Below are positions 30,148 to 37,812 of a DNA stretch of 48,245 bases, piece after piece. The stretch covers positions 1-48,245 of the forward strand of contig CADBEA010000016.1 in NCBI GenBank assembly GCA_902793635.1. The letters are read 5' to 3'. Position numbers and translations under genes: made by a program. The stretch comes from an uncultured Erysipelotrichaceae bacterium (lineage in GTDB: Bacteria; Bacillota_I; Bacilli_A; Erysipelotrichales; Erysipelotrichaceae). Under the pieces are notes generated by a model. The model had not been told where the DNA came from. It worked only from the letters and a program-made list of their open reading frames with translations, and did not search any database. The number at the start of each line of letters is the position of its first letter. The first letter of the stretch is position 1.

Positions 30148-30262
30148 CTTCGCACCTCTTGGTTAGATATTACTAATTATTATAGTTCCCTCTTTGTTCT
30201 TCGGCAATGCGCTATAATGCAGTCAGAAGACATCTTTATCAATTATCATGGAGGTTCCGCAT

Positions 30263-31648
30263 ATGATCGTCAAAGCTGTTATGGTACCGCACCCGCCGCT
30301 GGCAGTTTCCGAAGTCGGCCGCGGTGACGAAAAGAAAATACAGAATACCCTGGATGCCTATCATCAGGCCGCCCGGGAAATCGCTGAAACAAAACCGGAG
30401 ACCGTCATCATCATCTCTCCGCATGCCCTGATGTACCGGGATTATTTCAATATTTCCTGCGGCCGGGAAGCTTATGGCGACCTGGGCAGATTCCGGGCCG
30501 GCATGGTTGCCTTCGAAAAAGAATATGATGAAGAATTCACCCATGCCCTGAGCGAACTTCTGTATGCCGAAGGATTCCCCGGCGGCACTGAATATGACAA
30601 TGATCCGCAGCTGGATCACGGCACCATGGTTCCCCTCTATTTCCTGGATCAGTATCTGCCGGATGTCAGAATCGTCAGGATCGGTCTGAGCGGTCTGCCG
30701 CTTGCCCTGCATTACCGCCTCGGTATGTATATTGCCGAAACTGCCGCCAGACTGAACCGGCGGATCGCCGTCATCGGCAGCGGTGATCTGGCCCATTGCC
30801 AGAAAGAAGACGGTCCTTACGGATACCGTCCGGAAGGTCCGGAATATGACGAAAAGATCATGAAGACCATGGGCAGCGCTGATTTTGAAGCACTGTTCAG
30901 CTACCCGGAAAGCTTTCTGAATGCGGCAATGGAATGCGGCCACCGTGCTTTTGTCATCATGGCCGGCATTCTTGACGGTCTTTCCGTCACCCCGCATGTG
31001 CTTTCCCATGAAGCGACTTTCGGTGTCGGCTACGGCATCATCACTTATGACATCAACGGCACTGACGAAAACCGCCATTTCCTCGATCATTACAATGACC
31101 GGGAAAAGAACCGGCTGGCCGCAAAGGCTGACAGCAGTGACGCCTGGGTCAGACTGGCCCGGGCATCTGTGGAATCCTACATCCGGCATGGCAGAGTACT
31201 GAAAGTCCCCGACGGTCTGCCGGAAGAATTGTACAGAGATAAAGCCGGCTGTTTTGTGTCGATCCACGAACACGGCGAACTGCGCGGCTGTATCGGAACG
31301 ATTGCCGCGACCAAGCCTTCGCTGGCCAAAGAAATCATTGACAATGCAATCAGTGCCTGCAGCCGGGATCCCCGCTTCTCAGCCATCGAAGAAGATGAAC
31401 TGGAGTGGCTGGAAATCAACGTCGACGTACTTGGCAAACCGGAGCCGGTAAAGGATATTGCCGAACTGGACGTGAAGAAGTACGGCGTGATCTGTTCCTC
31501 CCGCGGCCGCAGGGGATTGTTACTGCCGGATCTTGAAGGTGTTGACAGTGTGGAGCAGCAGCTTGACATTGCCTGCTCAAAAGGCGGTTTTGACAGATAC
31601 GCGGAAGACCTTAAAATCGAACGTTTCGAGGTGATACGTCATGTCTGA
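30263..31648 (+). CDS. amrB-amrA fusion: AmmeMemoRadiSam system protein: MEMO-AMMECR1 fusion
   Basis: About 461 residues. Residues 1-265 form a MEMO-like (extradiol-dioxygenase-fold) domain with ISPHALMYRDYF, QLDHGTMVP, GSGDLAHCQ and MECGHRAF, covering the expected His and Cys residues. Residues about 285-455 form an AMMECR1 domain with GCFVSIHEHGELRGCIGT and the DPRFSAIEEDELEWL segment. These domains are often separate proteins A and B of the AmmeMemoRadiSam system, whose function is not established. ATG at 30263 is chosen because GGAGG lies 7 bases upstream. The gene overlaps the radical SAM gene by 8 bases, so all three activities are co-translated. Confidence 0.9.
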   Translation: MIVKAVMVPHPPLAVSEVGRGDEKKIQNTLDAYHQAAREIAETKPETVIIISPHALMYRDYFNISCGREAYGDLGRFRAGMVAFEKEYDEEFTHALSELLYAEGFPGGTEYDNDPQLDHGTMVPLYFLDQYLPDVRIVRIGLSGLPLALHYRLGMYIAETAARLNRRIAVIGSGDLAHCQKEDGPYGYRPEGPEYDEKIMKTMGSADFEALFSYPESFLNAAMECGHRAFVIMAGILDGLSVTPHVLSHEATFGVGYGIITYDINGTDENRHFLDHYNDREKNRLAAKADSSDAWVRLARASVESYIRHGRVLKVPDGLPEELYRDKAGCFVSIHEHGELRGCIGTIAATKPSLAKEIIDNAISACSRDPRFSAIEEDELEWLEINVDVLGKPEPVKDIAELDVKKYGVICSSRGRRGLLLPDLEGVDSVEQQLDIACSKGGFDRYAEDLKIERFEVIRHV

Positions 31649-32456
31649 GATCATCTGTGATGTTTGTTTTCATCACTGCCGTCTGGCGGAAGGAAAAACC
31701 GGTTTCTGCAAAGCCCGCCGCAATGAAAACGGTCAGAACGTCTGTCTCAATTATGGAAAACTGACATCAATTGCCCTTGATCCAATCGAAAAAAAGCCGC
31801 TGTATGGCTTTTATCCCGGTTCCATGATCCTTTCCTGCGGCAGTTTCGGCTGTAATCTGGCCTGCCCTTTCTGCCAGAACCATGAGATCTCCCAGCATGA
31901 CGATCTGCCGGTTTATGAACTGACGCCGGAGGAATTATGCGGCCTTGCCCTGCGGCATCCGGAAAGCATCGGTGTCGCTTTTACCTACAACGAACCGACC
32001 ATCAGCTGGGAATATGTTTATGACTGTTTCCGTCTTTTGAAACAGCATGATTTGAAAACGGTCCTGGTGACCAACGGCAGTATGTCAGCCGGGGTTCTGG
32101 AAAAACTGCTGCCGTACACGGATGCCATGAACATCGACCTGAAAGGCGATGCGGATTTTTACCGTGAACTGGCCGGTGATTATGAAACGGTCCGCCGCAA
32201 TATAGCCGCCTGTATCGGCCGCACCCATGTGGAAGTGACGATGCTGATCGTGCCCGGCAAAAACGATTCGGAAGAATTCATGCGCAGGGAAAGCAGCTGG
32301 CTCGCTTCCCTCGATCCGGAAACGATTCTCCACATCACCCGTTATTTCCCGCGCTATAAATACCAGATCCCGAAGACGGATGTCAGCCTCATGCGCAAAT
32401 TAAAAAACATTGCCGAAGAATCCCTGCATCACGTCTTCCTCGGCAATGTATTCTGA
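31641..32456 (+). CDS. amrS: AmmeMemoRadiSam system radical SAM enzyme
   Basis: A 271-residue radical SAM protein. The Fe-S motif CGSFGCNLACPFCQNHEIS (Cx3Cx2C within) follows an N-terminal four-cysteine stretch (CDVCFHHC, GFCKAR), typical of this PflA-like subfamily. Later motifs FTYNEPTISWEY and NIDLKGDADFY match the SAM-binding barrel. It is the partner of the fused MEMO-AMMECR1 protein and overlaps it. The modified substrate is unknown in the family. Confidence 0.92.
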   Translation: MSEIICDVCFHHCRLAEGKTGFCKARRNENGQNVCLNYGKLTSIALDPIEKKPLYGFYPGSMILSCGSFGCNLACPFCQNHEISQHDDLPVYELTPEELCGLALRHPESIGVAFTYNEPTISWEYVYDCFRLLKQHDLKTVLVTNGSMSAGVLEKLLPYTDAMNIDLKGDADFYRELAGDYETVRRNIAACIGRTHVEVTMLIVPGKNDSEEFMRRESSWLASLDPETILHITRYFPRYKYQIPKTDVSLMRKLKNIAEESLHHVFLGNVF

Positions 32457-33357: not shown

Positions 33358-33390
33358 AAAAAAGAGCTTCCGGCAATGCCGAAAGCTCTT
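33358..33390 (-). terminator. Terminator of the HPr-dehydrogenase gene
   Basis: A 13-bp stem with one G-U pair (33362-33374 with 33378-33390) and a 3-base loop, followed by a T run on the minus strand. Confidence 0.85.
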
Positions 33391-33405: not shown

Positions 33406-34704
33406 TTATTTGCACTCAGCTGCGCCGAGGTCTACACCCTGGTTGAAGTTACGGGCGTTTTCAAGGGTAACAGCTGCGATAGCCTGCAGAGCTTCTCTTG
33501 TGAAGAATGCCTGGTGGGATGTCAGAACGACGTTCGGGAACATCAGCAGTCTGGCTGTGATATCGTTGACCAGGTAGTCGTCGGAATGGTCTGTGTAAAC
33601 GTTGGCATCTTCGCCTTCGTATACGTCGAGACCGACAGCGTGGAATTTACCCTGCTTCAGAGCATCGATCAGAGCTTCTGTGTCGATCAGACCGCCGCGG
33701 GCTGTGTTAACGAGGATCGCTGTATCCTTCATCTTGGAGATAGCATCAGCGTCGATCATATGATATGTGCCGGTCGGGCCCATGATCAGCGGTGCGTGCA
33801 GAGAAATCAAATCTGCCTTCTGGAGGAGTTCGTCTTTGTCAACATAGGTCAGCAGGCCTTCGTCAACGAGGCTCTGGTTCGGGAATGCATCCCAGCCGAT
33901 AACAGTCATGCCGAAGCCTTTGCAGATACGGGCCATGCACTGACCGATCTTACCTGTACCCATGATACCGGCAACTTTGTTGTGGAGGTCAACACCGAGC
34001 AGTCCGCTCAGCGCGAAGTTGTTGTCCTTAACCTTGTTGACAGCCTTGTGCATACGGCGGTTGCAGGTCATAACCAGTGTCATTGCGTGTTCAGCAACTG
34101 CGTAAGGAGAATATGCCGGAACACGGGCAACCTTGATGCCGCATTCCTTGGCAGCCTGCAGGTCAACGTTGTTGAAGCCTGCGCAGCGCAGCAGAATGAG
34201 CTTGACACCGCAGTCATGCAGTTTTTCAACAGCACTTCTCGGGCACTCGTCATTAACGAAAATACATACAGCGTCAAAGCCTCTTGCAAGACCTGCTGTT
34301 TCAGGTGTCAGACGGGCATTGAAATACTTGATATCGCAGTTGTATGCGCCTTCACCGACATCGCTTGCCAGTTCGCTGAAGAAAATACGGTCATAGTCTT
34401 TGGCACCGAAGAAAGCGATCTTGAGAACAGGAACTTCCTCATATCTCTTCAGTCTGTGGTCCAGTTCGTCCTTGATAACTGCCAGAGCGTGATCTTCATC
34501 GCCGCCTTCAGCACTGATTTCAAGAACGGAACCCTGCTGAGCATTCAGCGCCAGGATCTGCAGAACGTTGTCGCCATTGGCAACCTTGCCTTCGCACTTA
34601 ATTGTGATCTGGGAAGGCAGGGCTACGCATGCCTGTGCGACGAAAGCAGCCGGACGTGCGTGCATTCCGAGAGGGTTAGTGATTTCGTACGTAATCTGTT
34701 TCAT
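33406..34704 (-). CDS. HPr phosphocarrier domain fused to D-2-hydroxyacid dehydrogenase
   Basis: A 432-residue single reading frame with two complete domains. Residues 1-88 are an HPr (PTS) domain: NPLGMHARPAAFV gives His15, Arg17 and Pro18, the phosphorylation site. The position of the regulatory Ser46 is Asn46 (VANGDNVLQIL), so HPr kinase should not act on it. From residue 94 (LKIAFFGAK) it is a D-lactate-dehydrogenase-type enzyme, with NAD-binding GTGKIG at 249-254, the catalytic Arg in NTARGG, Glu in DVYEGE and His in SHQAFF. The junction lacks a linker and a start codon, so two genes misread as one is unlikely. Expected role: pyruvate to D-lactate, possibly under PTS phosphorylation. AAGGAGAG precedes ATG. 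Confidence 0.93.
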   Translation of the reverse strand: MKQITYEITNPLGMHARPAAFVAQACVALPSQITIKCEGKVANGDNVLQILALNAQQGSVLEISAEGGDEDHALAVIKDELDHRLKRYEEVPVLKIAFFGAKDYDRIFFSELASDVGEGAYNCDIKYFNARLTPETAGLARGFDAVCIFVNDECPRSAVEKLHDCGVKLILLRCAGFNNVDLQAAKECGIKVARVPAYSPYAVAEHAMTLVMTCNRRMHKAVNKVKDNNFALSGLLGVDLHNKVAGIMGTGKIGQCMARICKGFGMTVIGWDAFPNQSLVDEGLLTYVDKDELLQKADLISLHAPLIMGPTGTYHMIDADAISKMKDTAILVNTARGGLIDTEALIDALKQGKFHAVGLDVYEGEDANVYTDHSDDYLVNDITARLLMFPNVVLTSHQAFFTREALQAIAAVTLENARNFNQGVDLGAAECK

Positions 34705-34821
34705 TTTTTCTCTCCTTAGTAATTACCTACTTAATTATGAAAACTTTGATTCCTACTAAAATGATACTACATTTGACCGTCCAAAAGAAAGAAAACCACA
34801 GTTGTTTTTTCCTGCTTTGTC

Positions 34822-34864
34822 ACAAAAAAAAACAGTCCGGCCGCTGACAACGGCCGAAACTGTT
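34822..34864 (-). terminator. Terminator of the M20 peptidase gene
   Basis: AACAGT and CGGCCG arms pair with CGGCCG and ACTGTT across a small internal loop, followed by nine T residues on the minus strand. The remainder of 34705-34821 must hold the promoter of the HPr-dehydrogenase gene, but I see no convincing -35/-10 pair. Confidence 0.75.
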
Positions 34865-36240: not shown

Positions 36241-36792
36241 TTACTTTTTCAGTTCGGCTGCCACTGCTGCTTTGACGTCATCCATATCCGCTGTCGGTTC
36301 GAATCTGGCAACGACGTTTCCTTCACGGTCAATGAGGAACTTCGTGAAATTCCATTTGATGTAAGCTTTATCGCCGAAGGCCTTGTTGTTCATTTCCGAG
36401 AACTTGTTCAGAGCCGCATTCTTCAGGCCCCTGCCGAAACCGGCAAACGGTTTTTCTGTCGCAAGATAAGCAAACAGCGGATCGGCGTTCTCACCGTTGA
36501 CATCGATCTTGGCGAACTGCGGAAACTCGGTGCCGAATTTTACGGTGCAGAATTCATGGATTTCATCCTCAGTGCCAGGTGCCTGGTTGGCGAACTGATT
36601 GCACGGGAAGTCGAGGATCTCAAATCCTTCTGCCCGGAATTCTTTATACATAGCTTCCAGCGGATCATAGTGCGGTGTGAAGCCGCAGCCTGTTGCTGTA
36701 TTGACGATCAGAAGTACTTTGCCATGGTAGTCGGCCAGACTGACGTTGTTGCCTTTTCTGTCTCTTACTGTGAAATCATAAACTGTTGTCAT
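36241..36792 (-). CDS. Glutathione/thioredoxin peroxidase (GPx family)
   Basis: About 183 residues, a thioredoxin-fold peroxidase. The peroxidatic residue is cysteine, not selenocysteine, in NTATGCGFTPHYD. The conserved FPCNQF with a second cysteine and WNFTKFLID tryptophan/asparagine site are present. Firmicute members usually use thioredoxin and reduce hydrogen peroxide or lipid peroxides. AAAGGAG precedes ATG at 36792; a longer frame adds 14 unlikely residues. It is monocistronic behind a good sigma-A-type promoter. Confidence 0.9.
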   Translation of the reverse strand: MTTVYDFTVRDRKGNNVSLADYHGKVLLIVNTATGCGFTPHYDPLEAMYKEFRAEGFEILDFPCNQFANQAPGTEDEIHEFCTVKFGTEFPQFAKIDVNGENADPLFAYLATEKPFAGFGRGLKNAALNKFSEMNNKAFGDKAYIKWNFTKFLIDREGNVVARFEPTADMDDVKAAVAAELKK

Positions 36793-36834
36793 TTTAATGT
36801 CTCCTTTCAAACGAGATATATTTATTACAACCAT

Positions 36835-36934: not shown

Positions 36935-37687
36935 CTATTCAGTATAGACCAGACGGAACTCCGCCATGATTCCTTCTTTGCCGATACGGTAGCGGTCCGG
37001 ATACAGGTCGCCAAGCAGGCTGATATCCGCTGACAGTTCCACGCTTTCTCCATCCGCCAGTTCATATGCCTCCATCGTCCACATCATATTTCGGCTCTGT
37101 TCTGTTTCCTTCCATTCGCCGTTGTCATTGGTTTCCAGCACAAAGGCACTGCCGTAGGTAAACGGTTTGCCGCTCTGGTTGCTCAGCACCATTTTCATAA
37201 TGGGATAGGCAAATTCTTTCAGAGACAGCGTGATGCCGTCCAATTCACCGTCTTTATGTGTGTCCATGATCAGATCTATTTTTGTAAAAGCATTTTTCAT
37301 ATCTTCACCCTCTTCGATGCGGCCCGGCCAGGTCGTGATGCCGCCGATCTCCACAATATTCGTATAGCCCATGGCAGCCAGTTTTTCCGCCGCCTGTTTA
37401 CTGCGGTTGCCGCTGCGGCAGTAGACAAAGATCAGCTGATCAGGATCCGGCAGTTCAGCCGGCATACTGTCGGTGATCGTTTCGTTGGGAACATTAACAG
37501 CATCAGGAAGATGTGATTCGGCGAATTCATCGGTTCGCCGCACGTCGAGAATAATGTAGTCTTTCTCACTTGCCATCATTGCCAGCGCTTCCTCCTGGCT
37601 GATTGAACGGTAAGTATTCTCTTTTTCCCTGGCGCATCCGGCCAATGTAAACACAGCCAGTACAGCCGCGACGATTTTTCTGAACAT
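36935..37687 (-). CDS. Rhodanese-domain lipoprotein with Ig-like C-terminal domain
   Basis: About 250 residues. A lipoprotein signal peptide ends in the lipobox LAGC, so it should be anchored outside the membrane. Residues about 25-120 form a rhodanese domain with the active-site loop VYCRSGNRS, containing the catalytic cysteine. Residues about 130-250 resemble a bacterial immunoglobulin-like domain (Big_14 type: FTYGSAFVLE, then YELADGESVEL and YRIGKEG). GGGGAG precedes ATG at 37687. Rhodaneses of this kind handle sulfane sulfur; a surface role combined with an Ig-like domain is unusual but seen in Firmicutes. Confidence 0.86.
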   Translation of the reverse strand: MFRKIVAAVLAVFTLAGCAREKENTYRSISQEEALAMMASEKDYIILDVRRTDEFAESHLPDAVNVPNETITDSMPAELPDPDQLIFVYCRSGNRSKQAAEKLAAMGYTNIVEIGGITTWPGRIEEGEDMKNAFTKIDLIMDTHKDGELDGITLSLKEFAYPIMKMVLSNQSGKPFTYGSAFVLETNDNGEWKETEQSRNMMWTMEAYELADGESVELSADISLLGDLYPDRYRIGKEGIMAEFRLVYTE

Positions 37688-37812
37688 AACTGTCACTCCC
37701 CTGTCCTTTTTATCATACATGAATACAGCATGGGCCGCTCAGTCTTTGAACTGCAGGCATCATTTTCACAGCAATGTGCAGCAGGATATACAATATAAAC
37801 GGAGGTCTTCCT

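Follow-up and report, generated by a model that had tools for sequence, protein, structure and literature searches.

A conserved fusion of an HPr domain with a predicted D-lactate dehydrogenase and its possible control by the phosphotransferase system

Why would a bacterium join HPr, the phosphocarrier of the phosphoenolpyruvate (PEP)-dependent sugar phosphotransferase system (PTS), to a dehydrogenase in a single polypeptide? The question is raised by a gene at positions 33406–34704 (minus strand) of contig CADBEA010000016.1, assembly GCA_902793635.1, from an uncultured Erysipelotrichaceae bacterium; we analysed a stretch of 48,245 nucleotides from this contig, hereafter called the window. A first-pass annotation of the window had described one open frame in which an HPr domain runs into a complete D-2-hydroxyacid dehydrogenase. 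Our analysis bore this out. The gene is a single ATG-started open reading frame (ORF) of 432 amino acids plus stop, with matches in Pfam and NCBIfam, and we could align 49 full-length fusion members, on which the conservation, entropy and tree results given below are based.

Domain searches placed PTS-HPr (PF00381) at residues 3–79, with 73.4 bits against a Pfam cut-off of 23, and NCBIfam assigned the chain to the HPr family TIGR01003 (67.1 bits against a cut-off of 47.9). The remainder matched 2-Hacid_dh (PF00389; residues 122–423, 99.9 bits) and the NAD domain 2-Hacid_dh_C (PF02826; residues 208–399, 167 bits), both over the Pfam cut-offs, so that the dehydrogenase is indeed complete; besides HPr, the two databases detected only dehydrogenase domains in the chain. 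An AlphaFold model built from 49 homologues showed the strand and helix order of HPr, with a predicted local distance difference test (pLDDT) score of ~93. Together with the Pfam and TIGR01003 matches, this order delimits the HPr domain to residues 1–85 (34450–34704; all features of the gene lie on the minus strand). The model ended the last HPr helix (residues 70–85) and began the first dehydrogenase strand (residues 94–99) on either side of ~8 fast-evolving residues, which we define as a short, variable, high-entropy linker (residues 86–93; 34426–34449). The dehydrogenase follows at residues 94–425 (33430–34425), as judged from Pfam, the nearest solved structures and its invariant catalytic residues. 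The halves had been described as joined without linker or start codon. The second part of that wording held, as no in-frame start codon lies near the domain boundary in the window ORF and none is conserved there among the 49 members; the first was slightly too strong, given the linker. We also considered separate translation of the dehydrogenase from an internal start and rejected it: near the boundary, start codons occur at scattered places and none has a good ribosome-binding site.

The first-pass annotation had named a sequencing error joining two genes as one finding that would argue against a functional link, and had proposed a search for the architecture across the clade. The same fusion occurred in 49 separate sequences and assemblies, isolate genomes included, which excludes an artefact. 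Within the family of the window, 17 of 146 genomes carried the fusion (16 complete copies and one split across two contigs), as did 16 of 43 genomes from a second family of the same order and 3 of 398 genomes sampled from the phylum of Eubacterium pyruvativorans, a sample centred on that species. In genome_contigs, 29 records contained the full-length fusion, and these came in part from isolates, namely Kandleria vitulina DSM 20405, Eggerthia catenaformis DSM 20559 and Eubacterium pyruvativorans i6; the closest records, 93–95% identical, were from uncultured Erysipelotrichaceae. This recurrence is far beyond chance.

A single fusion event fits these data best, because the dehydrogenase halves of the 49 fusions formed one clade (support 100/100) and the HPr halves formed another (99/92). 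The sister group of the fusion dehydrogenases was the unfused lactate dehydrogenase (LDH) of Lachnospiraceae, and no sampled member of the clade had lost its HPr (49/49 keep it). The free HPrs closest to the fused domain belonged to a second HPr type, present in Clostridia and similar genomes; the tree gave no support to an origin from the local, ordinary HPr of Erysipelotrichales.

Has the fused HPr kept what a phosphocarrier needs? All 49 members matched PF00381, and His15, Ala16 and Arg17 were invariant (49/49), with Pro18 kept in 48; the annotation had reported His15, Arg17 and Pro18 as intact in the window protein, and they are. Val47, Leu48 and Leu51 were nearly invariant. At the positions that we take to form the contact face for Enzyme I (EI) and Enzyme IIA (EIIA), mean entropy was 0.87 bits, compared with 1.72 for the rest of HPr, and random sets of positions were as low in 0.045% of draws. 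The HPr half diverges faster than the dehydrogenase half, with a mean pairwise identity of 51% versus 77%. The ratio of nonsynonymous to synonymous substitutions (dN/dS) was ~0.23 in HPr, ~0.59 across the linker region (residues 80–93) and ~0.13 in the dehydrogenase; these values are averages over pairs that overlap in ancestry and not independent tests. Judged from these patterns, purifying selection acts on the HPr half, most strongly at the phosphotransfer face, and the domain appears to be a working phosphocarrier. The faster divergence would also suit a domain that has no part in the PTS and only aids folding or oligomerisation, but such a module would not need the invariant His15, Ala16 and Arg17 or the conserved contact face, and we regard this explanation as very improbable.

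Position 46, the regulatory serine of HPr in low-GC Gram-positive bacteria, is not conserved as Ser in the fusion family. It was Asn in 43 members, including the window protein as first annotated, Asp in five and Ser in one. The nearest free HPrs, whose sequences we read by eye, had Gly, Arg, Gln or Lys at this position and never Ser; because they too lack Ser46, Asn46 was probably inherited rather than acquired with the fusion. Four fusion genomes gave no match to HPr kinase, three with Asn46 (G148, G677 and G757) and one (G154) that carries the only Ser46 member (L053:679-1986), a suggestive but single case. The idea that Asn46 is an adaptation to escape HPr kinase is weakened, as the nearest free HPrs lack Ser46 and Asn46 occurs in fusion genomes negative for the kinase. 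The annotation had further called the protein the reverse of Crh. Crh, an HPr paralogue that has likewise lost one regulatory site, keeps Ser46 and lacks His15, whereas the fusion keeps His15 and mostly lacks Ser46, so it is not a Crh and the comparison holds residue by residue; the loss of Ser46 is not specific to the fusion, however, being shared with the nearest stand-alone HPrs.

Turning to the dehydrogenase half, the catalytic residues Arg336, Glu363 and His397 and the NAD-type Asp272 were invariant in 49/49 members. The nearest solved relatives were LdhA-type D-lactate dehydrogenases at ~44–46% identity (best 5z21, E = 3e-93), a structure search returned the same set, and the closest solved relatives were thus D-LDHs rather than phosphoglycerate or glyoxylate enzymes. 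VanH was rejected, with 214.6 bits against an NCBIfam cut-off of 540. The half is therefore most likely an LdhA-type D-lactate dehydrogenase, with a predicted activity that converts pyruvate to D-lactate. As a separate observation, residues 117–119, Trp271, the loop at 283–286 and residue 407 were nearly invariant in the fusions and differed in unfused LDHs; they may form a contact surface for HPr.

We then compared the PTS partners and other LDHs encoded by carrier genomes. Each of the 34 genomes searched, 27 fusion carriers and seven non-carriers, encoded EI (PF05524), so its presence does not set carriers apart. The genome of the window encodes EI, HPr kinase and an ordinary HPr with His15 and Ser46, and every carrier genome examined for HPr had at least one stand-alone HPr-family match. 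The fused HPr is thus an extra, dedicated copy. No L-LDH was found in the genome of the window (PF00056 search; control found in 13 of 14), nor was another close D-LDH; the next relative showed 38% identity over ~118 amino acids, and the other dehydrogenase relatives there had E values of 1e-16 or weaker. With no L-LDH found and those relatives so distant, the fusion is the sole evident lactate dehydrogenase of that genome.

Taking these results together, we put at about 0.5 the probability that the fused HPr, phosphorylated by EI on His15, acts as the regulatory domain of the main fermentative D-lactate dehydrogenase of these bacteria and couples it to the PTS state, which depends on PEP and pyruvate. 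We infer the phosphorylation, its coupling to activity and the direction of that coupling from sequence. The first-pass annotation had suggested that PTS phosphorylation state could directly set fermentative NADH re-oxidation, and this is still the reading that we prefer. EI would transfer phosphate from PEP to His15, and the degree of phosphorylation there would reflect sugar flux and the PEP/pyruvate ratio. While a PTS sugar was available, HPr would be mostly unphosphorylated, the dehydrogenase would be fully active and NADH would be re-oxidised; once the sugar was exhausted, PEP would be high and phosphorylated HPr would restrain the dehydrogenase by altering how tightly or how cooperatively the LdhA-type oligomer binds pyruvate. 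If there is regulation, the dephospho form is the likelier active form, because it would dominate when sugar flows in and NADH needs re-oxidation. The LdhA-type enzymes characterised to date form tetramers that are cooperative for pyruvate; they include three of the nearest solved relatives, and two of the three show clear activation by fructose 1,6-bisphosphate or Mg2+, with a marked effect of fructose 1,6-bisphosphate in two (PMC4230899).

Several observations weigh against this proposal. The overall predicted template modelling score (pTM) of the AlphaFold model was only 0.60, so the model does not define where HPr sits on the dehydrogenase. Some carriers also encode a stand-alone L-LDH. 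One member (L060:6001-7302) has Leu in place of Pro18, beside His15-Ala16-Arg17. The five Asp46 members (L012, L014, L054, L058 and L059) resemble a permanent mimic of phospho-Ser46, and Asp46 in an ordinary HPr would weaken phosphorylation by EI. Lastly, a conserved phosphotransfer face would be equally expected of a mere phosphate carrier or of a module that docks on EI; regulation, docking and phosphocarrier service all predict the same face, so sequence alone cannot separate them.

Docking would mean that HPr brings the dehydrogenase to EI, where pyruvate released from PEP is reduced on the spot; the reduction would pull the reversible EI reaction forward and re-oxidise NADH, and phosphorylation need not alter LDH activity. 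EI does generate the substrate of the dehydrogenase (textbook PTS chemistry; PMC8100219), the EI-facing surface of HPr is conserved and EI is encoded in each fusion genome tested. Pyruvate diffuses fast, however, HPr–EI docking is transient and a review states that there is no evidence for larger complexes of EI, HPr and Enzyme II (PMC8100219). We consider docking with pyruvate capture unlikely.

The second alternative is a plain phosphocarrier, in which an additional HPr phosphorylates certain EIIA proteins and is merely co-expressed with an LDH, the two activities being independent. The intact phosphotransfer face would suit this role, and HPr fusions such as FruB or DhaM-like proteins are familiar among PTS proteins (PMC2405797). 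By contrast, the carrier genomes examined for HPr already have a stand-alone match, the surveyed fusions link PTS parts to one another and none includes an oxidoreductase (PMC2405797), and all 49 members retain the fusion despite the solitary position of the gene and a neighbourhood that is not conserved across lineages. In the window, the terminator of the upstream M20 peptidase gene (34833–34862, minus strand) isolates the fusion gene, which has a ribosome-binding site graded good (AAGGAGAG, 34705–34716, minus strand) 5′ of its ATG and an intrinsic terminator 3′ of it (33362–33390, minus strand; a 13-bp stem with a T run after it, folding energy −20.4 kcal/mol, z −5.1). Flanked by these two terminators, the gene forms a single-gene transcription unit. 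An operon with PTS genes was rejected accordingly, as none is conserved next to the fusion and neighbours differ between lineages. An independent carrier role is, in our judgement, also improbable.

How does the fusion compare with known systems? It shares with the HPr family (PF00381, TIGR01003) the fold, the His15/Arg17 active site and the hydrophobic contact face, but adds a dehydrogenase and has Asn or Asp in place of Ser46, a residue also missing from the nearest free HPrs. With the LdhA-type D-LDHs of Fusobacterium nucleatum (5z21), Pseudomonas aeruginosa (5z20) and E. coli (5z1z) it shares the catalytic Arg, Glu and His and the NAD-type Asp; those enzymes lack an HPr domain and are regulated by pyruvate cooperativity, fructose 1,6-bisphosphate and Mg2+ (PMC4230899). 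Multi-domain PTS fusions (FruB/FPr, MTP, DhaM and EIIA-HPr) likewise hold HPr within a larger chain, but their partners are other PTS domains (EI or EIIA), whereas the partner here is a fermentation enzyme, so the protein does not belong with MTP, FPr or DhaM. In a 2008 survey of the phosphoryl-transfer chain, HPr figures as a single protein or as a fusion partner of EI or EIIA domains, and the text never uses the word ‘dehydrogenase’ (PMC2405797). We found no description of an HPr–dehydrogenase fusion in the open-access papers searched, although public databases presumably show this architecture.

A functional parallel is free HPr in E. coli, which binds pyruvate kinase PykF, PfkB, Adk and NagB, regulates glycolytic and other enzymes, PykF among them, and so also acts directly on metabolism; there HPr is a reversible partner and LDH is not among the reported targets, whereas in the fusion it is covalently attached (PMC8167557). 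On the simplest reading, that of regulation, the lineage would have fixed covalently an HPr–enzyme link of this kind. Falling slightly short of even odds, in our estimate, is the wider claim that the PTS phosphorelay directly and covalently switches the main LDH through EI-dependent phosphorylation of its built-in HPr, which would be a new kind of PTS output that works without EIIA, HPr kinase or CcpA.

Two other loci in the window deserve mention. On the plus strand, an ORF at 30248–31648 combines LigB-like (Memo-type) and AMMECR1 domains in one chain and overlaps by a few bases a radical SAM gene at 31641–32456; the pair looks like an AmmeMemoRadiSam system with two parts fused. On the minus strand, 36935–37720 encodes a protein, possibly a lipoprotein, in which a rhodanese domain precedes a bacterial Ig-like Big_14 domain, and adjoins a glutathione peroxidase gene (36241–36834).

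Carriers of the fusion include lactate producers of the rumen and gut (Kandleria and Eggerthia), and this guild has been associated with low-methane sheep (PMC5069950; PMC6781651). A D-LDH gene of Sharpea showed 12-fold higher expression in such sheep (PMC5069950); we found no source in the open-access papers searched for D-lactate as a product of Eggerthia or Kandleria. For protein engineering, the fusion offers a natural case of a phosphorelay domain joined to a metabolic enzyme. Control of the end of fermentation by PTS flux is usually discussed in terms of fructose 1,6-bisphosphate or CcpA-dependent transcription. Because the link between HPr and LDH is covalent and conserved, a single purified protein plus EI would suffice to test for direct control. 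With an apparently working HPr attached permanently to the enzyme, sugar import could directly control fermentation in these gut and rumen bacteria.
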